A program made the translations under genes and the position numbers. A DNA stretch of 64,000 nt from Sphingobium lactosutens DS20 (GTDB taxonomy: Bacteria; Pseudomonadota; Alphaproteobacteria; Sphingomonadales; Sphingomonadaceae). The notes below the pieces were generated by a model. It was not told the DNA's origin. It made no database searches and worked only from the letters and a program-made list of their open reading frames with translations. Positions within the stretch are counted from its first letter, which is position 1. Each line of letters starts with the position of its first letter. The stretch spans positions 124,001-188,000 of the forward strand of contig NZ_ATDP01000071.1 of assembly GCF_000445105.1 (NCBI RefSeq). Direction: 5' to 3'. Shown here piece after piece: positions 26,661-64,000 of this stretch.

Positions 26661-26728
26661 GCCACGCCGGATCATTGTTCCGCCGCCGACGTTATGCCTG
26701 CATGCCCAAGGGCACGAAGGGGGACAGC

Positions 26729-27748
26729 ATGGCCGACATGTTCAAGACATGGCGCAAGGCGACGCGACTGGCGCAACGCCGACGCCCGCTGTCTGCCGCG
26801 TTCGCGTTGCAGGATTTGTTCAAACCCGGCCCGTCTCCCACCATCCGCAAACGAACCAGGCCCCAGTCCCGGCCCCGGCCCACACGGCCGCCTCCGGGCA
26901 GCTTCATCGCTGGAAACCATAAGAGCCGATCTGGCGTCATCGCCTATCGCCTCTATACCCCCGTTGGTTCACCGCGACGGCGCATGCCCCTAGTCGTCAT
27001 GCTGCATGGCTGCACCCAGACTGCGGAGGATTTCGCGGCAGGCACGCGCATGAACCGGCTGGCCGACGAACTTGGCTTTCTGGTCCTCTATCCCGAACAG
27101 TCGCAAAAGGCTAATTTTGCGCGCTGCTGGAACTGGCACGCGCCCGAAAATCAGCGAGCTGGCGCTGGCGAAGCCGGCATGATCGCGTCGCTGACCCGTC
27201 ATGTCATCGACCTGTGCAACGCCAACCCCGCCCGGGTCTATATCGCGGGCATTTCGGCAGGGGGCGCGGCCGCCGCCATCATCGGCGCTGCCTATCCCCG
27301 TCTTTATGTCGCGGTCGGCGTCCATTCCGGCGTTGCAGTCGGTGATATCCAGACACTGCAATCGGCCCTGACGGCCATGCGCGGCAAGCGGACGGCACAG
27401 CCTGCGGGAAAATTGCCCCGGCAACTGCCGACCATCGTCTTTCATGGCGATCAGGACAAGGTGGTGCATCCCTCCAATGCCGGCGGGTTCCTACATAATC
27501 TGGAGCGCGCGGGCATGGGGCCGCTGACTTTGCGGACGGTGACGGGCACATCGGACGGCGGCCGCGCCTTCACGCGCCGCATCTACCAGGAACGAAGCGG
27601 AAAGCCTTTGCTGGAGGAATGGACGATTCACGGCAGCGGTCATAGCTGGTCGGGCGGCAGCCCATTGGGGTCGCATACCGACCCCGCCGGGCCGGATGCC
27701 TCCCGCGAAATGCTGCGTTTCTTCCTCGCCCGCAGGCGGGGTGGTTGA
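26729..27748 (+). CDS. PHB-depolymerase / feruloyl-esterase family hydrolase
   Basis: 339 residues, alpha/beta hydrolase of the esterase PHB depolymerase (LpqC-like) family. Oxyanion loop VVMLHGCTQTAEDFA, nucleophile elbow AGISAGG (Ser near 176), catalytic Asp in FHGDQDKVVHPSN, and His in HGSGHSWSGG. An N-terminal ~60-residue basic, proline-rich stretch has no signal peptide, suggesting an intracellular enzyme or unusual export. Start at 26729 follows AAGGGGG. Substrate could be polyhydroxyalkanoate or an aryl ester. Convergent with the SDR at 27753. Confidence 0.82.
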   Translation: MADMFKTWRKATRLAQRRRPLSAAFALQDLFKPGPSPTIRKRTRPQSRPRPTRPPPGSFIAGNHKSRSGVIAYRLYTPVGSPRRRMPLVVMLHGCTQTAEDFAAGTRMNRLADELGFLVLYPEQSQKANFARCWNWHAPENQRAGAGEAGMIASLTRHVIDLCNANPARVYIAGISAGGAAAAIIGAAYPRLYVAVGVHSGVAVGDIQTLQSALTAMRGKRTAQPAGKLPRQLPTIVFHGDQDKVVHPSNAGGFLHNLERAGMGPLTLRTVTGTSDGGRAFTRRIYQERSGKPLLEEWTIHGSGHSWSGGSPLGSHTDPAGPDASREMLRFFLARRRGG

Positions 27749-31349: not shown

Positions 31350-32882
31350 TCAGCGATATTGGTCGCGCAGCACGCGGCGCAGCACCTTGCCAGAGGGGTT
31401 GCGGGGCAAGTCGGATTGGAAATCCACTGATTTTGGCGCCTTGTAGGCCGCAATCCGCTTGCGCGCCCATGCGATGATCTCGCTTGGCTGCGGCTCAGCG
31501 CCCTGGGTCGGGACGACGATCGCCTTGACCGCCTCGCCCCATTTGCTGTCCGGCACACCGATCACCGCCACGTCGGCGACCAACGGATGGCTGATGATGG
31601 CCTTCTCCACCTCGGCGGGATAGACATTCTCCCCGCCGGTGATGATCATGTCCTTGATCCGGTCGGCGAGGTAGACATAGCCATCGGCATCCATGCGTGC
31701 AGCGTCACCCGTGCGCAACCAGCCGTCCGCGTCGATGGTTTGGGCCGTGGAGTCCGGCCGCCCAAAATAGCCCGCCATGTTGGATGGGGACCGGATCGCC
31801 ACCTCGCCCACCTCCCCCGCCGGCAGCACATGGCCATCGGCATCGAGAATGCGAATATCCACGCCCGGCAGCGCCCGCCCGATGCTGGCCATGCGATCAT
31901 TGCCACGCACGTCATGATCCTCCGGCGCCAGCCCGGCGATAGTCCCGGCTGTTTCGGTCATCCCGTACATCTGGGCAAAGCCGCACCCGAAGATGGTGAT
32001 CGCCTGTTGCAACAGGTCGAGCGGGATCATCGACCCGCCATAGCAGATCGTTTCCAGAAAACTGAAATCGGTCTGCGCCGCGCGCGGATGGTCGCACATG
32101 ATGCGCAGCGCCGTTGGCACGATCATCAGCTTCGTGATGCGGTGCTCCACCAACAGGTCGAGCACCCTGTGCGGATCAAATTCGCGCACCACCACCGCCT
32201 TCGCCCCATGCTGAAGCGCCCAGAGCCCCCAGCCCGACCCGCTGATATGAAAGATCGGCATGGCGACCAGCGCCACGTCCCGCGACGACCAGACGAACCA
32301 GCCCGGCAAGGCGTCCTGCGACACATTATCGCGCAAGCCAAGCAGGCTGCGGTTGGTCAGCATCGCGCCATTGGGATTGCCGGTGGTGCCGGAGGTATAA
32401 AGTTGCAGCGCGACATCCTCATAGCCGCCATCGTGATGAGGGTCCGCTTCGGATTGGCTGTCACGCCAATCCGCATAGAGATCGCCGTCGCTCGCGGCTT
32501 CCGTCAAAAGGACGGGACAGGATGGCGCAGGGTCCAGCCGCGCGGCGAGTTCCGGGTCCACGACCAGCAAAGCGGGCCGGCAATCGGCCAGGATATAGGC
32601 AATTTCCGGCGGAGCGAGCCGCCAATTGACGGGCGTCATCACCATGCCTGCGCGGATCGCCCCCATCCAGATTTCGAAATAGGCGGCGCTGTTCTTGCCC
32701 AGATAGGCCACGCGGCTGCCCGTTGGCATAGCCATCGCCCGTAGGCCGTTCGCCACCTGGCTGGCGCGACGATCCAGCAAGGCATAGCTTATGCTTTCGC
32801 CTTCAAAGACGAGAGCCTCCGCATCCCCCTGATCGCGCGCATGTGCCCGCAGATACTGGCCTATCGTTCTGCGCTCGCCCAT
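31350..32882 (-). CDS. Acyl-CoA synthetase / AMP-dependent ligase
   Basis: 510 residues of the acyl-adenylate family, forming a CoA thioester from a carboxylic acid with ATP. Motifs: LYTSGTTGNPNGA (P-loop), YGMTETAG, GEVAIRSPSNMAGY, WLRTGDAARMDADGY, DRIKDMIITGGENVYPAEVE and the C-terminal PRNPSGKVLRR with the catalytic Lys. Substrate unknown; medium-chain or alicyclic acids are plausible given the island. Start at 32882 (MGERRTIG). Divergent from the SDR at 33048. Confidence 0.93.
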   Translation of the reverse strand: MGERRTIGQYLRAHARDQGDAEALVFEGESISYALLDRRASQVANGLRAMAMPTGSRVAYLGKNSAAYFEIWMGAIRAGMVMTPVNWRLAPPEIAYILADCRPALLVVDPELAARLDPAPSCPVLLTEAASDGDLYADWRDSQSEADPHHDGGYEDVALQLYTSGTTGNPNGAMLTNRSLLGLRDNVSQDALPGWFVWSSRDVALVAMPIFHISGSGWGLWALQHGAKAVVVREFDPHRVLDLLVEHRITKLMIVPTALRIMCDHPRAAQTDFSFLETICYGGSMIPLDLLQQAITIFGCGFAQMYGMTETAGTIAGLAPEDHDVRGNDRMASIGRALPGVDIRILDADGHVLPAGEVGEVAIRSPSNMAGYFGRPDSTAQTIDADGWLRTGDAARMDADGYVYLADRIKDMIITGGENVYPAEVEKAIISHPLVADVAVIGVPDSKWGEAVKAIVVPTQGAEPQPSEIIAWARKRIAAYKAPKSVDFQSDLPRNPSGKVLRRVLRDQYR

Positions 32883-33825: not shown

Positions 33826-34602
33826 ATGAGCGAGGAACAGCCGGAAAGGCTCAATTGCGTGCTGATCGCAGGCGGGCTTTATCATGATTTCGATTTTGCC
33901 CGCCTGGAACTGTTGAAACTCCTGGCGGAGGATCCGCGGGTGCGAACCCGTGTGTTCGAAGATTATGGGAATATCGAGGCGATCCGTGCGGCCGATTTCC
34001 TGATCACCTACACCTGCGATGTCACCCCCCCGCTTGCGGTGCAGGAAGCGTTGCGGGATTGGGTGGCGCAGGGTGGACGCTGGTATGCGCTGCATGGGAC
34101 CAATTCGGTGCTGCGCCTGTTCGACAATGGCCTTTATGGCGCGCCGCGTTGGGCGCCCTTGCTGATGGAGACGCTCGGCACCCAGTTCATCGCCCATCCG
34201 CCGATCGCCCCCTACAGGGTCGAGGTCGCCGATCCCGACCATGTGCTCACGCAAGGGATCGAGCCGTTTGAAACCATCGATGAGCTGTATCTGATGGAAC
34301 GGCATGGCGATCTGCACATCCTGCTCGACACCCCGTTTGAAGGCGACGCCACCGGCTTTGACGAGCATGAATGGGCGCACGACCGACACCCCGTGCTCTA
34401 CATCAAGACCCAGGGCGAGGGGGCGGTGCTCTACAATACTTTAGGCCATTGCCGCGGCCATTATGACATGCAGCCCTTCCTGGACTGGTGGCCCCAGGTG
34501 GATCGCTGCGCCTGGGACCTGCCGGTCTTCCATGATCTGCTGCGGCGAGGCATCGCCTGGGCCAAGGAGGGGAAAAGCGCCCGCACGCCAACCGTCAGCT
34601 AA
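33826..34602 (+). CDS. ThuA-like domain protein
   Basis: 258 residues of the ThuA (class I glutamine amidotransferase-like) fold. Seen: VLIAGGLYHDFDFARLELLK, DFLITYTCDVTPPL, GGRWYALHGTN, and HEWAHDRHPVLYIKTQGEGA with the ThuA-type HPVLY near the C terminus. The family is linked to trehalose utilisation and sugar metabolism in rhizobia but its chemistry is unclear. A second ThuA-like gene lies at 47471. The stop codon overlaps the end of the opposite-strand Rieske ferredoxin gene by 8 nt. Confidence 0.85.
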   Translation: MSEEQPERLNCVLIAGGLYHDFDFARLELLKLLAEDPRVRTRVFEDYGNIEAIRAADFLITYTCDVTPPLAVQEALRDWVAQGGRWYALHGTNSVLRLFDNGLYGAPRWAPLLMETLGTQFIAHPPIAPYRVEVADPDHVLTQGIEPFETIDELYLMERHGDLHILLDTPFEGDATGFDEHEWAHDRHPVLYIKTQGEGAVLYNTLGHCRGHYDMQPFLDWWPQVDRCAWDLPVFHDLLRRGIAWAKEGKSARTPTVS

Positions 34603-37298: not shown

Positions 37299-37318
37299 AC
37301 CTATGCTTTCTTACAGAA
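37299..37318. promoter_or_regulatory. Lux-box-like inverted repeat (site l) with -10-like box
   Basis: ACCTATGCTTTCTTACAGAA fits 12 of 18 positions (7 of 9 in the left arm). CATACT at 37340-37345 follows after exactly 21 nt, and the GTG start at 37375 is 56 nt downstream. It precedes the DUF35/thiolase/2-oxoacid dehydrogenase operon. Confidence 0.5.
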
Positions 37319-37374
37319 GCCATCGCGCGCTGCCCTTTCCATACTCCATCGGGTCAAGAGGGAGAGCATCGCCT

Positions 37375-37782
37375 GTGGGGCAGACCATAGACATAGCCGA
37401 GGGATTGTTCGTCGATACGCCGCATCCGACCCTGATCGGCGGGCGGCATCGCCAGACCGGTCGCATCGTCTTTCCCTGCCCGACCGGCAACCCGGACTAT
37501 GAGCCGATGCTGCTCCCGCGTCGGGGCACGCTCTGGTCCTGGACGGTGCAGCGGTTCCGGCCTAAGTCCCCGCCCTATGCTGGGCCTGAAGAATTTTCGC
37601 CCTTTGCGCTGGGCTATGTGGAGTTGCCGGGCGCGGTGATCGTGGAGGCCCCCTTTGCGGATGTGGCCTTCGACAATCTGCGGATCGGCATGGAGATGGA
37701 AACGGTGCTCATCCCCCTCAATCATGACGGGCAAGGACGTACCATTCGCACCTTCGCCTTCGCACCGGCGCGAGAGGGTTAA
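37375..37782 (+). CDS. DUF35 OB-fold protein, partner of acyl-CoA thiolase-like enzyme
   Basis: 135 residues from a GTG with AGAGGGAGAG upstream. OB-fold DUF35 pattern: RQTGRIVFPCPTG, LWSWTVQRF, PFALGYVELPGAVIVEAPF, DNLRIGMEMETVL. The N-terminal zinc ribbon normally has four Cys; here only one (FPCP) is visible, so zinc binding is probably lost. DUF35 proteins pair with thiolase-fold enzymes, including ChsH2/Ltp2-type retro-aldolases of steroid side-chain removal. It is followed 3 nt later by such a thiolase-like gene, so the two likely form one enzyme. Confidence 0.85.
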   Translation: MGQTIDIAEGLFVDTPHPTLIGGRHRQTGRIVFPCPTGNPDYEPMLLPRRGTLWSWTVQRFRPKSPPYAGPEEFSPFALGYVELPGAVIVEAPFADVAFDNLRIGMEMETVLIPLNHDGQGRTIRTFAFAPAREG

Positions 37783-37785
37783 GCC

Positions 37786-38931
37786 ATGGCGGACGTCTTC
37801 ATCGTGGGGATCGGGGTTCATCCCTTCGGCCGGACCGAAGGTCGATCCGGTCTGCAACAAGGGGCATTCGCCATCCGGCAAGCGCTGGATGACGCAGGGC
37901 TGGACTGGGGCGACATGCAGTTTGGCTTTGGCGGGTCGGACAGTGCCGGCAATGCCGATACGGTCGTCAACGAAATGGGGCTGACCGGCCTGCCGATCAT
38001 CAATGTCCGCAACGGCTGCGCGACCGGCGGGTCGGCGCTGATCGGCGCATGGCAGGGCATCGCGTCGGGCCAATATGACCTGGGCGTCGCCTTTGGCTTC
38101 GACAAGCATCCGCGCGGCGCGTTCAACGCCATGCCGGCCGAATATAGCCTGCCCGACTGGTATGGCGAAGCCGGGATGATGGTGACGACGCAGTTCTTCG
38201 CCATGAAATTGCAACGCTATATGGCGCAGCATGGCATTACCCCCATGGCTTTGGGTCGGGTGGCGCAAAAGGCGTTCGACAATGGTGCCCATGCCCCCCA
38301 TGCCTGGCGGCGAAGCCCGGTCGATCTGGAGACGATCCTGTCGAGCCAGATGATTTCCGATCCGCTGACCAAATATATGTTCTGTTCACCGGCCGAGGGC
38401 GGCGTCGCCCTGATCCTGGCGAGTAAAAAGAAGGCGCGGCAATTGGGTCGCGACCGGATCCGCATCAAGGCCGCGGTCACGCGCACACGGCCGCCCGGCT
38501 CCTTCGAAGTCTTCTCCCCCAGCCTGTCGATCGAGCGAGGCGGCGCCCCCACCCTGCTCGCGTCGGCCGCTGCGTTCGACATGGCCGGCATCGGGCCGGA
38601 TGACATTGACGTCGCCCAATTGCAGGATACCGAATCCGGGGCCGAAATCATGCACATGGCCGAAAACGGATTCTGCCGGGACGGCCAGCAGGAAGAATGG
38701 CTGGCCGAAGGATGGAGCCGGATCGACGGCAAGCTGCCCATCAACACCGATGGCGGATGCCTGGCCTGCGGCGAACCGATCGGCGCGTCGGGCCTGCGCC
38801 AGGTCTATGAAAATGTCGTGCAATTGCGTGGCTCCGGGGGCGGACGGCAGGTGCCGGGCGAACCGAAGACGGGCTACACCCATGTCTACGGCGCGCCCGG
38901 CATTTCCGGCGTCACCATATTGGAGCGATGA
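37786..38931 (+). CDS. Thiolase-like (SCP2/lipid-transfer type) acyl-CoA enzyme
   Basis: 381 residues of the thiolase fold, SCP2-thiolase/Ltp branch. Seen: MADVFIVGIGVHPFGRTEG at the N terminus, nucleophile-region NGCATGGSALIGAWQGIASG, CSPAEGGVALIL, and a C-terminal LPINTDGGCLACGEPIGASG, CGEPIGASG with a Cys and the GxG loop. May act as 3-ketoacyl-CoA thiolase or, with the DUF35 partner, as a retro-aldolase. Six-gene operon from 37375 to 43604 includes two further enzymes and a 2-oxoacid dehydrogenase. Confidence 0.9.
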   Translation: MADVFIVGIGVHPFGRTEGRSGLQQGAFAIRQALDDAGLDWGDMQFGFGGSDSAGNADTVVNEMGLTGLPIINVRNGCATGGSALIGAWQGIASGQYDLGVAFGFDKHPRGAFNAMPAEYSLPDWYGEAGMMVTTQFFAMKLQRYMAQHGITPMALGRVAQKAFDNGAHAPHAWRRSPVDLETILSSQMISDPLTKYMFCSPAEGGVALILASKKKARQLGRDRIRIKAAVTRTRPPGSFEVFSPSLSIERGGAPTLLASAAAFDMAGIGPDDIDVAQLQDTESGAEIMHMAENGFCRDGQQEEWLAEGWSRIDGKLPINTDGGCLACGEPIGASGLRQVYENVVQLRGSGGGRQVPGEPKTGYTHVYGAPGISGVTILER

Positions 38932-38932
38932 G

Positions 38933-40141
38933 ATGAACCTCAATTTCACGCCCGAAGACGAAGCCTTCCGCACGCAGGTGCGCGCCTTCCTGGCCGAAAA
39001 TCTGCCCGAGCATCTGCGCGCCGGCATGGCGGCGACACCCGGCGTGTTTGTCGAGCCTGACATCGGACAGGAATGGCAGCGCATCCTGCATGCCAAGGGC
39101 TGGCTGGCCTATAACTGGCCGGTCGATTGCGGCGGCACGGGCTGGACGCCGGTGCAGCGCTATATCTTCGAAAAGGAATCGGCGCTCGCCAACGCGCCCA
39201 GCCTGCCGGTGCTGAGCCTCAAATTGCTGGGGCCGGTCATCTGCCGTTTCGGCACGGCCGAACAGAAGGCGCGGCTTCTCCCCCGTATCCTCGATGGCAG
39301 CGACTATTGGTGCCAGGGCTTTTCCGAGCCTGGCTCCGGATCGGACCTCGCCAGCCTCAAGACCCGGGCCGAGCGGCGCGGCGACCATTATGTGGTCAAC
39401 GGCCGCAAGCTGTGGACGACGCACGCCCATCACGCCAACAAGATTTTCTGCCTCGTGCGCACTGACCCGCAGGCCAAGGCGCAGGCAGGCATCAGCTTCC
39501 TCTTGATCGACATGGCGCAGCCGGGGGTCGAAGTGCGCCCTATAAAGGGGCTGGCCGGCGATCATGAAGTCAACGAAGTCTATCTGGACGACGTCATCGC
39601 GCCGGTCGAGGATCTGGTGGGCGAGGAAGGCATGGGCTGGACCATCGCCAAATTCCTGCTCGAAAATGAGCGCGGCGGCGCCTGCCACGCACCAAAGCTG
39701 TTGTCCGACATCGCCAAGCTGCGCGCCGAGGCGGCTGCCGAGCCGGACGGCAGGGGCGGCACCATGGCCGACGACCCCGCCTTTGCCGCAGACCTGGCGC
39801 GCACGGAACTGACGGCGCAGGCGCTGGAAATGACCGAATTGCGGGTGCTCGCCGACATGGCAAAGGGCCTGCCACCCGGGCCGCAGACATCGCTGTCGAA
39901 AATGGTCGCATCCACCTTGCGCCAGCAGGTCGATGCGCTGGCGGTGCGGCTTTACGGCTATGCCGGGCTGGAGTTGGAGCCGCGCCGACCGCTCTATGGC
40001 AATGGCGCGCCCAAACCGCTGCATGGCAAGGCGGCGCAGCTTGCCGCGCCGCGCTATCTCAACAGCCTCGCCTGGACGATTTTCGGTGGTACGAACGAAG
40101 TCCAGCGCACCATCATAGCAAAGACCGTGCTCGGCCTTTGA
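38933..40141 (+). CDS. Acyl-CoA dehydrogenase
   Basis: 402 residues beginning MNLNFTPEDEAFRTQVRAFL one nt after the thiolase stop. Middle: YWCQGFSEPGSGSDLASLKT (FAD/substrate loop) and LWTTHAHHANKIFCLVRT; C terminus: WTIFGGTNEVQRTIIAKTVL. In ordinary enzymes of this family the catalytic Glu sits just before the last GT motif; here it is Gly (FGGTNE), as in FadE-type subunits of steroid degraders that work with a partner. The 366-residue enzyme at 35027 may be that partner. The long frame upstream (from 38600) overlaps the thiolase and is not used. Confidence 0.9.
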   Translation: MNLNFTPEDEAFRTQVRAFLAENLPEHLRAGMAATPGVFVEPDIGQEWQRILHAKGWLAYNWPVDCGGTGWTPVQRYIFEKESALANAPSLPVLSLKLLGPVICRFGTAEQKARLLPRILDGSDYWCQGFSEPGSGSDLASLKTRAERRGDHYVVNGRKLWTTHAHHANKIFCLVRTDPQAKAQAGISFLLIDMAQPGVEVRPIKGLAGDHEVNEVYLDDVIAPVEDLVGEEGMGWTIAKFLLENERGGACHAPKLLSDIAKLRAEAAAEPDGRGGTMADDPAFAADLARTELTAQALEMTELRVLADMAKGLPPGPQTSLSKMVASTLRQQVDALAVRLYGYAGLELEPRRPLYGNGAPKPLHGKAAQLAAPRYLNSLAWTIFGGTNEVQRTIIAKTVLGL

Positions 40142-47470: not shown

Positions 47471-48277
47471 CTAGGGCGTCCGGCCTGCCACCCAATGGAG
47501 GGCGTTGCGGATCAGCCGGCGATAGTCGGGCTGGTCATAGGCCGCAGGGCCATCGCCGGGTTGCAGATAGACCAGCCGCGCATTGAGCGCTTTTTTCGTC
47601 CAGCCGATAAGGTCGCTACCCGGCGGATGGAGCCACCCGTCATTGCACTGCATCCGCCCGGCGAGTGCATGCTGCGGGCTGTAGAAGCGTTCCGCTGTAA
47701 AGCTGGCCGATGCGCGCAGCAGCGGCGTGACATCCTCCTCAAAAATTTCGGCGAGATACAGCTCGTCACGCATGGCAAAGCCGGCCGGGACGCCCGCCAT
47801 CACCGGATGATCCGGCGCGACGTTCCTGGCCTCATAGGGAATGTCGTGCGCATAGCCGCTATCGAGCCGCGACATACCGCGCACCATCGTAGGCTTGTAG
47901 AGGAAGCGGCCGCCCAGCCAGTCGCCATATTCCTCCCAGTCGGGCCAGCCGGCTAGGGCATGATGCAGGGCGACCACGCCGGTCCCCTGCTCCAGCAAGG
48001 CGCGAAAGCCTGCCTTGAAATCGGGTGATGGTGCGACGATGCCGGGGCGATCGGTCGGATGTTCGAAATCAAGGCCGGGCATGTCGTACAGCAGCAGCGC
48101 GTCGAAACCCCGCATGCCATCGGGGTTCATCAACCGGGCGGCCGCGGGCTGGTCGACCATTGTCGCGCTGACGCCGGGCATATCCTGAAAGATCGCATCG
48201 AACGCCGTGCGATCGAAGGGATGGCCCCGCACGGAAACCAATATGTTGAGGTTGGCATGATGATGGATGATCGGCAT
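47471..48277 (-). CDS. ThuA-like domain protein
   Basis: 268 residues, ThuA fold: MPIIHHHANLNILVSVRGHP, DALLLYDMPGLDFEH, LLEQGTGVVALHHALAGWPD, APDHPVMAGVPAGFAM, ARLVYLQPGDGPAAYD. Second ThuA paralogue of the island (first at 33826). Usual role linked to sugar metabolism; here context suggests catabolism. Ends beside the Rieske gene (convergent); divergent from the MDR gene at 48379. Confidence 0.82.
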   Translation of the reverse strand: MPIIHHHANLNILVSVRGHPFDRTAFDAIFQDMPGVSATMVDQPAAARLMNPDGMRGFDALLLYDMPGLDFEHPTDRPGIVAPSPDFKAGFRALLEQGTGVVALHHALAGWPDWEEYGDWLGGRFLYKPTMVRGMSRLDSGYAHDIPYEARNVAPDHPVMAGVPAGFAMRDELYLAEIFEEDVTPLLRASASFTAERFYSPQHALAGRMQCNDGWLHPPGSDLIGWTKKALNARLVYLQPGDGPAAYDQPDYRRLIRNALHWVAGRTP

Positions 48278-58237: not shown

Positions 58238-58257
58238 ACCTATGACTGTCCAGAGTT
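58238..58257. promoter_or_regulatory. Lux-box-like inverted repeat (site b) with -10-like box
   Basis: ACCTATGACTGTCCAGAGTT: left arm 9 of 9, total 14 of 18. TAGCCT at 58279-58284 follows after exactly 21 nt, and the start at 58317 is 59 nt downstream. An in-frame ATG at 58242 lies inside the site, so it is not the real start. Confidence 0.6.
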
Positions 58258-58316
58258 CCGCCGCCGCGCCCGGCGCGCTAGCCTGCACGTCAAATCAGAT
58301 CAGGGTAGAGGTGCGC

Positions 58317-59495
58317 ATGGGCTATCATGAAACCATCGGCGACGAAGCCGCCAAGATGCTGGAATATGTCGAAAACGGCACGACCGACAGCGCCGAAACG
58401 CCGATGGAGGTGCCCGCGTCCGCTTACACCGATCCGGCCCATTTCGACCGCGAGATGGCGACCATCTTCCACAGGCTGCCCCTGCTTGCCGCGCTGACCG
58501 CCGAAATGCCCAATCCAGGCGATTACAAGGCGATGGACCTGATGGGCAAGCCCGTCCTAATCACTCGCCGCACCGACGGCAGCGTGGCCGCGATGCTGAA
58601 CGTGTGCAGCCATCGCGGCATGATCCTGACGCCCGAAGGGCATGGCAACAAGAAACGCTTTTCCTGCCCCTATCATGCCTGGACCTTCGCCAATGACGGC
58701 AAGCTCGTCGGCGTCGCGGAACCCGGCAAGTTCGGCCCCGTCTGCAAGGAGGAACGCGGCCTCAAGACCCTGCCCTGCGCGGAGGCGGGCGGCATCATCT
58801 GGGTCAGCCTGTCGCACGACGCCGACATTGACATCGAAAAGCATCTGGGCGGAATGCTGGACGACCTTGACGCCTATGACCTTGCCAACTGGCATTATTG
58901 CGGATCGCGGCGCATCCATGGCGCGAACTGGAAAATCGCCTATGACGGCTATCTGGAAGGCTATCATTTCGCCGCCGCGCACCCGGAAACCATCCATCCG
59001 CGCACCTTTTCCAACATCATGCACTTCACCGCCTTTGGCCCGCACATGCGCGTTGGTTATCCGCAGGTGTCGATCAAGGAGAAACTGGGGGCCGAACCGC
59101 GCGAACGCTGGGGGCATATCGAAAATAGCGGCTATGATTTCGTGCGGACGATCTTCCCCAACGTGTCGATCTTCTTCGCGCCGGAAATCACGCAGGTGGC
59201 GCAACTCATTCCCGGGCCGACGCCCGACCGGAACACCACGAACCTGCTGTTCATCCGGCGCGAACCGCCGCGCGATGCGGAGGATGCGGCGGGCATCGAA
59301 ACCATGATGGACTGGCTGAGCGATGTCGTCGACCGGGAGGATTATGGCGTCGGCCTGCAAGTGCAGAAGGGGCTGGAATCCGGCGCGCTCTCATCGGTGA
59401 TCTTTGGCCGGAACGAGCGCGGCAACCAGTATTTCCACAAATATGTCGACTATCTGATCGCAAACGACGCCGACGCCCCGCCGCCGGTCCTGTGA
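58317..59495 (+). CDS. Rieske non-heme iron oxygenase, alpha subunit
   Basis: 392 residues from MGYHETIGDE. Rieske ligands C97, H99, C117, H120 (CSHRGM ... CPYHAW); iron site YDGYLEGYHFAAAHPE with His217 and His222, and Glu214 bridging. The protein is shorter than the other two Rieske enzymes. No beta subunit. Followed 31 nt later by the MDR gene on the same strand, so probably an operon. Confidence 0.9.
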   Translation: MGYHETIGDEAAKMLEYVENGTTDSAETPMEVPASAYTDPAHFDREMATIFHRLPLLAALTAEMPNPGDYKAMDLMGKPVLITRRTDGSVAAMLNVCSHRGMILTPEGHGNKKRFSCPYHAWTFANDGKLVGVAEPGKFGPVCKEERGLKTLPCAEAGGIIWVSLSHDADIDIEKHLGGMLDDLDAYDLANWHYCGSRRIHGANWKIAYDGYLEGYHFAAAHPETIHPRTFSNIMHFTAFGPHMRVGYPQVSIKEKLGAEPRERWGHIENSGYDFVRTIFPNVSIFFAPEITQVAQLIPGPTPDRNTTNLLFIRREPPRDAEDAAGIETMMDWLSDVVDREDYGVGLQVQKGLESGALSSVIFGRNERGNQYFHKYVDYLIANDADAPPPVL

Positions 59496-59526: not shown

Positions 59527-60576
59527 ATGAAGAATCGCCGCATCGTTCTGGCATCGCATCCCCATGGCGTTCCTGCGCCCGACAATTTCCGCCTGGTCGA
59601 AGAGGATATTCGACCCTTGGCCGATGGCGAGGTGCGCACGCGCAATCGGGTCTTTGCGATCGATCCTGCGATCCGCGGCCTGCTGGACGAAGGGGACGGC
59701 ACCTATCTTCCCTCCGTGCCGCTGGGCGGCCTTATCCCCACGATGGTGCTGGGAGAGGTCGTCGAATCGCGCAACCCGGCCTTTGCCGTAGGCGACCATG
59801 CGCGCGGGTTCATCGGCTGGGAGGAACAGAGCATCATCGCGGCGGACAATTTCGCCTGCGAAAATGTGAAGATCGACCCGACGATGCCGCTGACCGCCTA
59901 TATGGGGGCGCTGGGCTGGTCGGGGATCACCGCCTATGTCGGCCTCAAGCGGATCGGCGAGATGAAGGCGGGCGACACCGTCGTGGTGAGCGCTGCGGCG
60001 GGCGCGGTGGGCAGCGTCGCCGGACAGGTGGCGCGCCTGGCCGGATGCCGCGCTGTCGGCATCGCCAGCACCGACAAGATTGCCGAAGTGACCGGGGATC
60101 TGCGCTATGACGCGGCGGTCGACTACAAGGCCGCCGATGATCTGGGCGCAGCGGTGCGCGAAGCCTGCGGCGACAAGGGCGCGGACATTTATTTCGACAA
60201 TGTGGGCGGCCGCATCCTCGACACGATGCTGATGAACATGGCCGATTTCGGCCGCATCGTCGTGTGCGGCATGGTCGCCAATTACAACAGCCAGAATGAT
60301 CCCTACCCCATCCGCAATTTGTGGCAGGTGCTGGTCAACCGCATCACCATGCGGGGATTCCTGGCCTATGAGCATCTCGACATGCTGGAGGAGGCCCAGC
60401 AGCAACTGGGCGACTGGATCAGGACAGGAGCGCTGCGGGCGACGGAAAATGTCGCGACGGGAATCGAAAGCGCGCCTGACGCCTTCATCCGGCTGATGTC
60501 GGGGCAGACGCGCGGCAAGACCATCGTGCGGCTGGACCCCGACGTCACGACGCTGGATGGCTTCGCCCCCGTTTGA
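59527..60576 (+). CDS. MDR-family NADP-dependent oxidoreductase
   Basis: 349 residues. Zinc-free medium-chain reductase: IDPAIRGLLDEGDGTYLPSV, LGWSGITAYVGLKRIGEMKA, VSAAAGAVGSVAGQVARLAG, YFDNVGGRILDTMLMNMADF and YNSQNDPYPIRNLWQVLVNR. Closely resembles the paralogue at 48379 in motif order. Operon with the Rieske gene at 58317. Convergent with the VOC gene (21 bp apart). Confidence 0.88.
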   Translation: MKNRRIVLASHPHGVPAPDNFRLVEEDIRPLADGEVRTRNRVFAIDPAIRGLLDEGDGTYLPSVPLGGLIPTMVLGEVVESRNPAFAVGDHARGFIGWEEQSIIAADNFACENVKIDPTMPLTAYMGALGWSGITAYVGLKRIGEMKAGDTVVVSAAAGAVGSVAGQVARLAGCRAVGIASTDKIAEVTGDLRYDAAVDYKAADDLGAAVREACGDKGADIYFDNVGGRILDTMLMNMADFGRIVVCGMVANYNSQNDPYPIRNLWQVLVNRITMRGFLAYEHLDMLEEAQQQLGDWIRTGALRATENVATGIESAPDAFIRLMSGQTRGKTIVRLDPDVTTLDGFAPV

Positions 60577-61201: not shown

Positions 61202-61252
61202 ATGGAGAGCAGCAGATCGACGCCGGTTCGGCCGCATGGGGCCGCGTTGTGA
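61202..61252 (+). CDS. 16-codon leader frame coupled to the acyl-CoA dehydrogenase gene
   Basis: ATG with GGGAGAG 7 nt upstream encodes MESSRSTPVRPHGAAL; its TGA stop overlaps the GTG start of the acyl-CoA dehydrogenase gene (61249) by 4 nt. The dehydrogenase GTG itself has only a weak ribosome site, so this short frame may drive translation by coupling. No amino-acid run suggests attenuation. May also be fortuitous. Confidence 0.35.
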   Translation: MESSRSTPVRPHGAAL

Positions 61253-62433
61253 GCGGGATCGGGCCGGAGCGCACCGCCGCCCTTGCCGCAAAGGTCGAGG
61301 CTTTCGTGCGCGACACCGTCATTCCCTATGAACGCGATCCACGCCGCGACCATCATGGCGCACCGACCGAGGAACTGGTCGAGGAACTGAAGGAACACGC
61401 GCGCGCGGCCGACGTGCTGACGCCCCATATCCTGCCCGACGGCAGCCATCTGACGCAGCGTGAAACCGCCGTCGTGCTGACCGCTTCGGGCCTGTCCCCG
61501 CTCGGTCCCCTCGCCTGCAACACGGCTGCGCCCGACGAGGGCAATATGTATCTGCTGGGCAAGGTCGGCAGCCCGGACATTCAGGCGCGTTTCCTCAAGC
61601 CCTTGGTCGAAGGGCGCGCGCGATCGGCCTTCTTCATGACCGAACCCGACGGCGGGGCAGGCTCCGACCCGTCGATGATGCAGACCCATTGCCATCAGGA
61701 CGGCAATCACTGGGTCATCAACGGACGCAAGACCTTCATCACCGGCGCGCAGGGCGCGAAGGTCGGCATCATCATGGCCAAATCGGACGATGGCGCCTGC
61801 ATGTTCCTCACTGATCTGCCCCACCCCGCCATCCGCATCGACCGGGTGCCCAACACCATCGACAATTCGATGCCGGGGGGCCATGCGACCATCACCATCG
61901 ACAATCTGCGCGTGCCCGCCGACCAGATGCTGGGCAACAGCGGCGAAGGCTTCCAATATGCGCAGGTGCGCCTCAGCCCCGCCCGCCTGTCCCATTGCAT
62001 GCGCTGGCGCGGCGCGTGCATCCGCGCCCATGAAATCGCAACAGATTACGCCAACCGTCGCATGGCGTTCGGCAAGACCCTGATCGACCATGAAGGCGTC
62101 GGCTTCATGCTGGCCGAAAACATGATCGACCTCAAACAGTCCGAACTGATGATCGACTGGTGCGCCGGCGTGCTGGATGGCGGATCGCTGGGCACCGCCG
62201 AAAGCTCGATGGCGAAGGTTGCGGTGTCCGAAGCGCTGATGCGGGTCGCTGACCGCTGCGTCCAGGTGATGGGCGGCATGGGCGTCACCGCCGACACCAT
62301 CGTCGAACAGGTGTTTCGCGAAATTCGCGCCTTCCGCATCTATGACGGCCCCACCGAAGTGCATAAGTGGAGCCTGGCGAAGAAGATCAAGCGCGACTGG
62401 AAAGCGGCGCAGGCCGGCTCGGGCGTGGCATGA
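61249..62433 (+). CDS. Acyl-CoA dehydrogenase, ACAD10/11- and LvaC-like
   Basis: 394 residues, GTG start. FFMTEPDGGAGSDPSMMQTH, VINGRKTFITGAQGAKVGII, VMGGMGVTADTIVEQVFREI, RAFRIYDGPTEVHKWSLAKK. The last motif has Asp (YDG) where most family members have the catalytic Glu. It overlaps by 4 nt the kinase gene at 62430; this dehydrogenase-kinase pairing matches mammalian ACAD10/11 fusions and bacterial LvaC/LvaA, which turn 4-hydroxyacyl-CoA into 2-enoyl-CoA through a phosphorylated intermediate. That role is inferred. Confidence 0.88.
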   Translation: MSGIGPERTAALAAKVEAFVRDTVIPYERDPRRDHHGAPTEELVEELKEHARAADVLTPHILPDGSHLTQRETAVVLTASGLSPLGPLACNTAAPDEGNMYLLGKVGSPDIQARFLKPLVEGRARSAFFMTEPDGGAGSDPSMMQTHCHQDGNHWVINGRKTFITGAQGAKVGIIMAKSDDGACMFLTDLPHPAIRIDRVPNTIDNSMPGGHATITIDNLRVPADQMLGNSGEGFQYAQVRLSPARLSHCMRWRGACIRAHEIATDYANRRMAFGKTLIDHEGVGFMLAENMIDLKQSELMIDWCAGVLDGGSLGTAESSMAKVAVSEALMRVADRCVQVMGGMGVTADTIVEQVFREIRAFRIYDGPTEVHKWSLAKKIKRDWKAAQAGSGVA

Positions 62434-63503
62434 GCGGCACGGGGCAGGACGCCAATGCCGGGACCATCCCCGTGCGCGACGCCCACCGCTTCGATGAGGC
62501 GGCTCTGGCGCGCTGGATGGACAGCCACGTCGCAGGCTTTGCAGGCCCGATCCAGGTCGAACAGTTCAAGGGCGGCCAGTCCAACCCGACCTACAAGCTG
62601 ACGACGCCGGGGCGAACCTATGTCCTGCGGCGCAAGCCGCCGGGCGAATTGCTCAGGGGCGCACATGCCGTCGAACGCGAAGCGCGCGTGCTGATCGCGC
62701 TGGGCCGGGCCGGCTATCCAGTCGCCCATGTCCATGGCCTGTGCACTGACGACGCGGTCATCGGCAGCTGGTTCTATGTCATGGACATGGTCGAAGGGCG
62801 TATTTTCTGGGACGCGGCCTTTCCCGAAATCCATAAGGACGAACGCGCCGCCTATTTTGCCGCCATGAACGCGACCCTGGCGCAGCTTCATCGTTTCGAT
62901 CCTGAGACGGTAGGACTTGGCGACTATGGCCGTCCGGGCAATTATTTCGAACGGCAGATCGCCCGCTGGTCCAGGCAATATCTAGAGGATGAGGCTGCCG
63001 GGCGCGATCCGGGCATGGACAGGCTGATCGAATGGCTCCCGACAGCAATCCCGCCCGGGGATGAAACCCGGATCGTTCATGGCGATTTCCGGTGCGACAA
63101 TATGATCTTCCACCCGACGCAGCCACGCGTGCTGGCGGTGCTTGACTGGGAATTGTCGACCCTGGGCCACCCGCTTGCCGATTTTGCCTATCATGCGATG
63201 ATGTACCGCATGCCGCCCGACATCGTCGCGGGGCTGGGCGGCGCCGATCCGCGTCCCCTCGGCATCCCGACCGAGGAGGATTATCGCGCGGCCTATTGCC
63301 GCAATGTGGGCCGCGCGCCGATCCCGGATGCGGACTATGCCTTTTATATCGCTTTCAATTTCTTCCGGATGGCGGCAATCTTTCACGGCATAAAGGGCCG
63401 GGTGATCCGCGGCACGGCGGCATCGGTCCACGCGCGTGAGCGGGCCGAGCGCCTGCCGCAGTTGATTGCCCTGGCGGTGGAGATGATGGAGGCGTGCCGA
63501 TGA
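62430..63503 (+). CDS. Aminoglycoside phosphotransferase-like kinase, LvaA/ACAD10-kinase type
   Basis: 357 residues. QFKGGQSNPTYKLTTPGRTY (nucleotide loop), VLRRKPPGELLRGAHAVERE with the Lys, IVHGDFRCDNMIFHP (HGD...N catalytic loop, near 216) and AVLDWELSTLGHPLADFAYH (metal Asp). Family members next to acyl-CoA dehydrogenases phosphorylate 4-hydroxyacyl-CoA. The ATG overlaps the dehydrogenase stop (ATGA) and its stop overlaps the next start. Confidence 0.9.
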   Translation: MSGTGQDANAGTIPVRDAHRFDEAALARWMDSHVAGFAGPIQVEQFKGGQSNPTYKLTTPGRTYVLRRKPPGELLRGAHAVEREARVLIALGRAGYPVAHVHGLCTDDAVIGSWFYVMDMVEGRIFWDAAFPEIHKDERAAYFAAMNATLAQLHRFDPETVGLGDYGRPGNYFERQIARWSRQYLEDEAAGRDPGMDRLIEWLPTAIPPGDETRIVHGDFRCDNMIFHPTQPRVLAVLDWELSTLGHPLADFAYHAMMYRMPPDIVAGLGGADPRPLGIPTEEDYRAAYCRNVGRAPIPDADYAFYIAFNFFRMAAIFHGIKGRVIRGTAASVHARERAERLPQLIALAVEMMEACR

Positions 63504-64000
63504 CCGATGGGTCTGGAACCGATGGGGCTGAACCTGTCCGGTTCAGTGTCGAAAATGGAGTTGCCCATATCACGTTCAACCGGCCTGATGCCGGCAACGC
63601 CATTGACCTTCCCATGGCCCGCGCGCTGGCCGACATAGCGAACCGGTGCCAGAGCGATGCCGCGATCCGCTGCGTCGTGCTGACGGGCTCGGGCCGGCTT
63701 TTCTGCGCCGGTGGCGACATTGGCGCGTTCCGCGCCGCGGGCGATGATGTGGAGGCCATGTTACTGGATCTGGCCGGCACGCTGCATGTCGCCGTGGCTC
63801 GCTTCGCCCGCATGGCAAAGCCGCTCCTCACGCTGGTCAATGGTCCGGCGGCCGGCGCCGGCCTGAGCCTCGCCATCGCCGGCGATGTGGTCCTGTGCGG
63901 CGCGTCCGCCCATTTCACCGCAGCCTATGGCGGGATCGGCCTGACGCCCGATGGCGGCATGAGCTGGCTGCTGCCGCGCCTCATCGGGTTGCGCAAGGCG
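63500..64000 (+). CDS. Enoyl-CoA hydratase/isomerase, 3' end outside window
   Basis: First ~167 residues of a crotonase. ATG at 63500 overlaps the kinase stop. Seen: FSVENGVAHITFNRPDAGNA, VLTGSGRLFCAGGDIGAFRA (oxyanion-hole loop), AAGAGLSLAIAGDVVLCGAS, FTAAYGGIGLTPDGGMSWLL. The usual Glu pair is not both evident (SLAIAGD and GLTPDGG), pointing to an isomerase-like or variant hydratase. Likely the third gene of the acyl-CoA dehydrogenase-kinase operon, acting on its enoyl-CoA product. Truncated by the window edge. Confidence 0.88.
   Translation, partial: MTDGSGTDGAEPVRFSVENGVAHITFNRPDAGNAIDLPMARALADIANRCQSDAAIRCVVLTGSGRLFCAGGDIGAFRAAGDDVEAMLLDLAGTLHVAVARFARMAKPLLTLVNGPAAGAGLSLAIAGDVVLCGASAHFTAAYGGIGLTPDGGMSWLLPRLIGLRKA

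Follow-up and report, generated by a model that had tools for sequence, protein, structure and literature searches.

A kinase/lyase route for 4-hydroxyacyl-coenzyme A (CoA) compounds was linked to mammalian ACAD10 and ACAD11 in papers from 2024 and 2025. According to the available part of PMC12440821, residues R626, H634 and R637 of the mouse proteins were modelled as holding the phosphate and D753 was taken as the base of the acyl-CoA dehydrogenase (ACAD) step, which requires redox-active flavin adenine dinucleotide (FAD) despite no net oxidation and is abolished by non-conservative changes of any of the three phosphate-holding residues (with a partial outcome for R637K). The accessible part of PMC11342911 describes ACAD10-dependent phosphorylation with 4-hydroxyhexanoate and not with 5- or 6-hydroxy acids, and in the lva pathway, as given in an excerpt of PMC6692424, the short-chain dehydrogenase/reductase (SDR) LvaD converts a 4-oxoacyl-CoA to a 4-hydroxyacyl-CoA. 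In open-licence papers, the literature we found relevant to an ACAD and kinase pair was limited to work on ACAD10/11 and levulinate, and no publication on such a pair in sphingomonads was found. Here we describe a pair of this kind, followed by a crotonase gene, at the end of a 64,000-nucleotide stretch (the window) of the Sphingobium lactosutens DS20 genome (5.35 Mb in 110 contigs; contig NZ_ATDP01000071.1, positions 124001-188000). Judging from sequence comparisons, we put at roughly 0.68 the probability that kinase and ACAD, joined by an isomerase, carry out a two-step dehydroxylation of a hydroxyacyl-CoA.

The operon runs in the order ACAD, kinase, crotonase on the forward strand (61249-64309), its final 309 bases lying past the window end on the same contig (Table 1). 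An earlier reading made from the letters alone (the sequence-only reading) had described an ACAD with Asp at the usual Glu position, an overlapping kinase and then a crotonase, and this trio is borne out by open reading frames (ORFs), Pfam matches and alignment. The likely kinase start is ATG 62430 (the listed ORF, 62367-63503, opens with GTG at 62367) and the likely crotonase start is ATG 63500 (listed from GTG 63494; the whole protein matches PF00378 at 3.5e-50). Both junctions are ATGA overlaps, which rules out a fused-gene or frameshift reading.

The residues assigned to phosphate holding and catalysis in ACAD11 have counterparts in the window ACAD, namely Arg241, a His-Cys-Met-Arg (HCMR) motif and Asp366, which sits in Y-D-G-P-T-E-V-H at a column where 5 of 10 ordinary ACAD rows carry Glu. 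The Arg, the HCMR motif and the Asp were kept in all 86 close ACAD relatives (6 plasmid and 80 genome loci, the latter the best 80 of at least 569 candidates, which biases this census to near relatives); one of these, a Sphingobium abikonense protein (L027), is 98% identical to the window ACAD. Among 39 further ACAD-like proteins, none had the pattern R-x7-HxMR; these were collected at E up to 1e-8 from 29 loci of this set, using the gene calls of the relatives' loci and of the one that holds the genome's own second copy.

These residues also mark a group in the ACAD tree, whose 39 rows comprise 29 motif-bearing and 10 ordinary ACADs, LvaA, LvaC and ACAD10 being absent. All 29 motif-bearing rows, ACAD11 included, form one group apart from the ordinary ACADs (support 90/84), and R, H, R and D were all kept in 29/29 of its rows vs 0/10 ordinary ones. 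Within the group, the ACAD11 branch (100/100) holds six rows (ACAD11, 4hr3, the third copy found in this genome and three more), and the window ACAD lies outside it in a separate 17-row branch (100/100). The window side also holds rows from C. oxalaticus, Rhodococcus and Thermus (98/93, 98/90 and 94/86), the motif-bearing rows L112, L114 and L119 attach weakly to the ACAD11 side (82/65), and the placement of long-branch rows is unsure in both the ACAD and the kinase trees. Because the window ACAD falls in the HCMR/Asp group yet outside the ACAD11 branch, it represents a separate subfamily, and the motif rows outside that branch mean that the motif extends past it. The ACAD10/11 likeness raised in the sequence-only reading holds for the group shared with ACAD11 and not for the ACAD11 branch itself. 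A haloarchaeal plasmid ACAD (L119:4983-6233) carries the full HCMR/Asp motif with no annotated kinase within its 11 kb stretch.

The predicted ACAD structure (mean pLDDT, the predicted local distance difference test score, of 86.2; 67.9-86.2 across five versions; built on 30 of 81 available rows) has ACAD11 as its top match (2wbi, Z 41.0, root mean square deviation 3.3, 381 aligned, 30% identical), followed by 4hr3 (Z 39.8) and 8v3u (Z 39.6), with other ACADs at 37.8 or below. The kinase, of the aminoglycoside phosphotransferase (APH) fold, shares 41.5% identity with the kinase domain of ACAD11 across 323 columns and keeps the ACAD11-type HGD Asp, Asn, DWE Asp, Arg before the alpha-C Glu and KRQ Arg; the Arg named R86 in the available part of PMC12440821 is 83 in chain numbering and was matched by description. 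Ranked by sequence, the ACAD11 kinase comes second after 3dxp (E 1.7e-74) and 25-hydroxy steroid kinase (25-HSK) ranks much lower, at 2.1e-5. The kinase model (pLDDT 86.8, built on 16 rows) has 3dxp as its best fold match (Z 38.9, 52% identical), after which come 25-HSK (9fsg, Z 24.6, 19% identity), Rv3168, homoserine kinase and choline kinases.

The gene immediately after the ACAD encodes a related kinase in 45 of the 86 relatives' loci, which argues that the gene pairing is not due to chance, and in one more (TomTYG65) the kinase comes one gene later; a 4-base ACAD/kinase overlap is possible in 29 of the 45. Of 149 genomes of the family, 35 carry the ACAD, at 45 places in all, and 26 of these places have a kinase less than 4 kb downstream. 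A kinase relative was present in all 35 ACAD-bearing genomes vs 86 of the 114 others (Fisher p = 0.00033, kinship ignored; ACAD and kinase genome lists compared by eye, with 37 of the kinase places among the matches listed, the 31 best and six from ACAD-bearing genomes, entered and the rest compared by eye). In this sample, therefore, the ACAD occurs only where a related kinase exists, not always adjacent. Together with the tree and the published key residues, this recurrent partner upholds the split ACAD10/11-like module that had first been proposed. A constant adjacent kinase is ruled out by the 40 of 86 loci lacking one, in none of which a profile of diverse kinases found a match; given these 40, a kinase encoded elsewhere or another ACAD function may apply.

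Partners appear to have changed hands between lineages. A plasmid of Sphingobium WTD-1 carries an ACAD from the ACAD11 branch next to a kinase placed by the kinase tree among the window-type kinases, and a nearby SDR is 50-54% identical to SDRs linked to window-type ACADs. If kinases and SDRs are shared by both ACAD lineages in this way, the same kind of phosphorylated product is probable, and this one case of partner exchange favours the same chemistry in both. Several Sphingopyxis loci (L034, L037, L038 and similar) carry a window-type ACAD without a kinase, beside, by eye, nitronate monooxygenase, two more ACAD and thiolase genes and in some a CaiB-type transferase gene; perhaps the ACAD has a different use there. 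In Sulfitobacter pontiacus the ACAD is followed about 7 kb on by a different kinase, itself accompanied by a DUF6285 gene. At L110, L112 and L120 a kinase and then a DUF6285 (PF19802) gene lie near HCMR-type ACADs, with histidine phosphatase genes in L110 and L112. DUF6285 could be the LvaB counterpart, which is a guess; a search for it gave 0 matches in the S. lactosutens genome (control matches in 2 of 14 genomes), which makes it unlikely to be a required partner.

The third gene had been called an enoyl-CoA hydratase, a name that suits its fold only. Aligned with E. coli and Thermus PaaG, the window crotonase and five relatives all keep the PaaG-type Asp of GLxPD (6/6); at this position 3hrx has Asp and the PDB chain 6sla Asn. 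No Glu occurs in the aligned hydratase-Glu stretch of the window protein or of any of the five relatives, all from the same kind of loci, and it is in this stretch that the two catalytic hydratase glutamates presumably fall. An active site without the Glu pair led us to reject a hydratase identity and, because the PaaG-type Asp is present as well, the predicted product is probably an enoyl-CoA isomerase of PaaG type. The score against the NCBIfam PaaG model is 182 bits, below its cut-off of 345. The available part of a PaaG review (PMC4498308) likens PaaG to an enoyl-CoA isomerase able to shift a 3-enoyl to a 2-enoyl bond, and also cites one catalytic glutamate, not aspartate.

Table 1 Coordinates of the module, its key codons and its upstream neighbours (window numbering)
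Feature	Position	Strand	Details
Rieske oxygenase alpha subunit	58242..59495	+	upstream of reductase; Rieske-type gene at same place in TomTYG65
Enone-reductase-like protein (ADH_N_2/ADH_zinc_N)	59527..60576	+	77% to TomTYG65 relative
ACAD-fold protein, HCMR/Asp group	61249..62433	+	394 aa, GTG start; PF00441 4e-36, PF02770 3e-14
Arg241 codon, ACAD11 R626 equivalent, putative phosphate contact	61969..61971	+	alignment; role from available part of PMC12440821
His249-Cys-Met-Arg252 codons, HCMR motif, ACAD11 H634-R637	61993..62004	+	alignment
Asp366 codon, catalytic base column, ACAD11 D753	62344..62346	+	alignment
ACAD stop/kinase start, ATGA overlap	62430..62433	+	4 bases
APH-fold kinase	62430..63503	+	357 aa; Pfam APH 4.7e-52
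Kinase catalytic Asp219 codon (HGD)	63084..63086	+	Asp240 if counted from 62367
Kinase stop/crotonase start, ATGA overlap	63500..63503	+	4 bases
PaaG-type crotonase, cut by window end	63500..64000	+	stop at 64309
PaaG-type Asp codon (GLTPDGG)	63950..63952	+	alignment

In the mechanism that we propose, where every activity is inferred, as are the 4-position, the substrate and the way the product enters the island, the kinase would use ATP to phosphorylate a hydroxy group of an acyl-CoA, most likely at C4 (gamma). The ACAD-fold protein would hold the phosphate by Arg241, His249 and Arg252 and, with Asp366 and FAD, expel it, with no net oxidation and an enoyl-CoA as the product; should this be a 3-enoyl-CoA, the PaaG-type crotonase would shift the double bond to C2, and ordinary beta-oxidation would follow. 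A plausible feed would be a 4-oxo-2-enoyl-CoA made by oxygenases, which the enone-reductase-like protein together with an SDR would reduce to the 4-hydroxyacyl-CoA. This line of enone reductase, SDR, kinase, ACAD and isomerase is suggested by the gene order in TomTYG65 and in the window together with the role of LvaD.

The module lies in a Rieske/TonB island that is shared by the TomTYG65 plasmid (60% of 24 kb at 79.2%), where a single strand encodes in succession a Rieske-type oxygenase, an NADP-dependent oxidoreductase, the ACAD, an SDR and the kinase; the oxidoreductase/ACAD and SDR/kinase junctions there each overlap by 4 bases. In the window, a glyoxalase-family gene on the opposite strand stands between the oxygenase and oxidoreductase relatives and the ACAD, and a pfkB-family gene, also on the opposite strand, lies downstream of the crotonase. 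Since a relative of the oxidoreductase was found at only 4 of the 86 loci (tblastn, E up to 1e-40), the TomTYG65-like setting is not general. The features seen in the TomTYG65 record name no substrate, and naming one from relatives failed. The island may yield a 4-hydroxyacyl-CoA or lactone-derived acyl-CoA, as the sequence-only reading had suggested; the gene settings of the relatives are varied, 40 of 86 having no kinase nearby. Among the island genes scanned, none clearly forms or opens a lactone, an esterase (26675-27748) and an alpha/beta hydrolase (67682-68596 in window numbering, beyond the window) being possible candidates, and the nearest CoA ligase is at 31350.

The genome holds two further pairs. 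One is close to the window pair (ACAD 80%, kinase 73% identical) and is preceded by two CoA-transferase subunits and followed by a gene that is thiolase-like by eye; the other is divergently placed (ACAD 37%, kinase 49%), with its ACAD in the ACAD11 branch. Elsewhere in the oxygenase island, a stand-alone OB_ChsH2_C (DUF35-type) gene is directly followed by a thiolase-like gene (37303-38931), a pairing that we take to resemble steroid side-chain aldolases; an ORF at 38600-40141 that reads as ACAD-like by eye and is absent from the gene calls is followed by 2-oxoacid dehydrogenase E1 (40166) and E2 (41970) genes; and there are two ThuA-family genes (33826-34602 and 47471-48277) and an AP_endonuc_2 gene (43663).

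Several observations weigh against two-step dehydroxylation by this module. The support of the motif-bearing group (90/84) is below the starred level, and identity between the ACAD and ACAD11 is only about 30%; by fold, the ACAD11 kinase (8v3v) ranks 18th (Z 20.9, 230 aligned, 36% identity), outranked by 25-HSK at Z 24.6 and by choline kinases. No kinase lies near the ACAD at 40 of the 86 loci (two of them with fewer than 1200 bases left), such a kinase is in any case widespread across the family (121 of 149 genomes), and no substrate-making step was identified for the module. The pair might instead be an ordinary LvaA/LvaC ortholog for levulinate or 4-hydroxyvalerate use, with which the protein kinds and key residues agree, as does the presence of some relatives on plasmids with SDR, CoA ligase or thiolase genes; the absence of a CoA ligase or SDR from the operon and its location in a Rieske/TonB island make this unlikely. 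Slightly more doubtful is removal of a hydroxyl elsewhere (C3 tertiary, C5 or ring) from a CoA-bound ring-cleavage or terpenoid intermediate. The deep split from the characterised branch, the PaaG-type partner, the Rieske and enone-reductase-like neighbours in TomTYG65 and, in Rhodococcus, a more distant relative beside an AtuA-family gene would suit such a role, but the residues for phosphate binding align column by column with those of ACAD11, which has a pocket suited to a C4 phosphate, and cells formed no phospho-product from 5- or 6-hydroxyhexanoate (available part of PMC11342911).

The fold ranking gives some weight to a kinase that, like 25-HSK, phosphorylates a bulky lipid hydroxyl and not a CoA ester, the ACAD acting separately: 9fsg is the second fold match (Z 24.6 vs 20.9 for the ACAD11 kinase), 25-HSK works with a separate phosphate lyase according to the accessible part of PMC8449060, and the island has oxygenases. 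We consider this improbable, since identity to 25-HSK is 19% (E 2e-5) against 41.5% to the ACAD11 kinase, the ACAD11 kinase requires the CoA part of its substrate (available part of PMC12440821), the gene is coupled with that of an acyl-CoA protein, and Arg residues proposed as CoA contacts are kept. An aminoglycoside-resistance APH beside an ordinary dehydrogenase is hardly credible: the NCBIfam APH(3') resistance model matches weakly, at 25.1 bits vs a cut-off of 205, a score on which the kinase was rejected as a resistance gene, and the ACAD carries a phosphate-binding motif absent from all 39 of the other ACAD-like proteins nearby.

Two-step dehydroxylation is thus the reading we prefer, the module appearing, from its residues and tree position, to be a separate lineage of a known kind with chemistry known elsewhere. 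More tentatively, phosphate-expelling ACADs might form several deep lineages in bacteria and perhaps haloarchaea, able to exchange their kinases, with ACAD10/11-LvaC as the only characterised one; the window lineage might then serve ring-cleavage or terpenoid catabolism, where an oxygenase, an enone reductase, an SDR, a kinase, a phospho-lyase and an isomerase would jointly turn 4-oxo-2-enoyl-CoA to plain 2-enoyl-CoA, a general means of getting past a blocked gamma carbon. Since it keeps the key residues and is present in 35 of 149 family genomes, the separate lineage offers separately encoded proteins with which to probe the reach of the chemistry, and annotations of 'acyl-CoA dehydrogenase' and 'aminoglycoside phosphotransferase' in degradation islands would become readable as a dehydroxylation step.

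Compared with mammalian ACAD11/ACAD10, the window pair shares the kinase fold, the ACAD fold, the phosphate-contact residues and the catalytic Asp, and differs in being split and gene-coupled where the mammalian proteins are one fused chain. The crotonase resembles PaaG, a 1,2-epoxyphenylacetyl-CoA isomerase and enoyl-CoA isomerase, in its fold, its Asp and its want of a hydratase Glu, and differs in scoring below the NCBIfam PaaG cut-off. With the Sterolibacterium 25-HSK, which pairs with a separate phosphate lyase that the available part of PMC8449060 gives as unknown, the kinase shares an APH fold that readies a hydroxyl for elimination as phosphate, and it differs in that 25-HSK takes free steroids and is 19% identical. 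With lva of Pseudomonas, the window has in common that a kinase and an ACAD from the same two families are encoded by separate genes, but the likeness to that operon does not carry over as originally worded: the window operon has no SDR (LvaD) or CoA ligase (LvaE), adds an isomerase-type crotonase as its third gene, and has its ACAD gene before the kinase gene, in contrast to LvaA as PP_2791 and LvaC as PP_2793.

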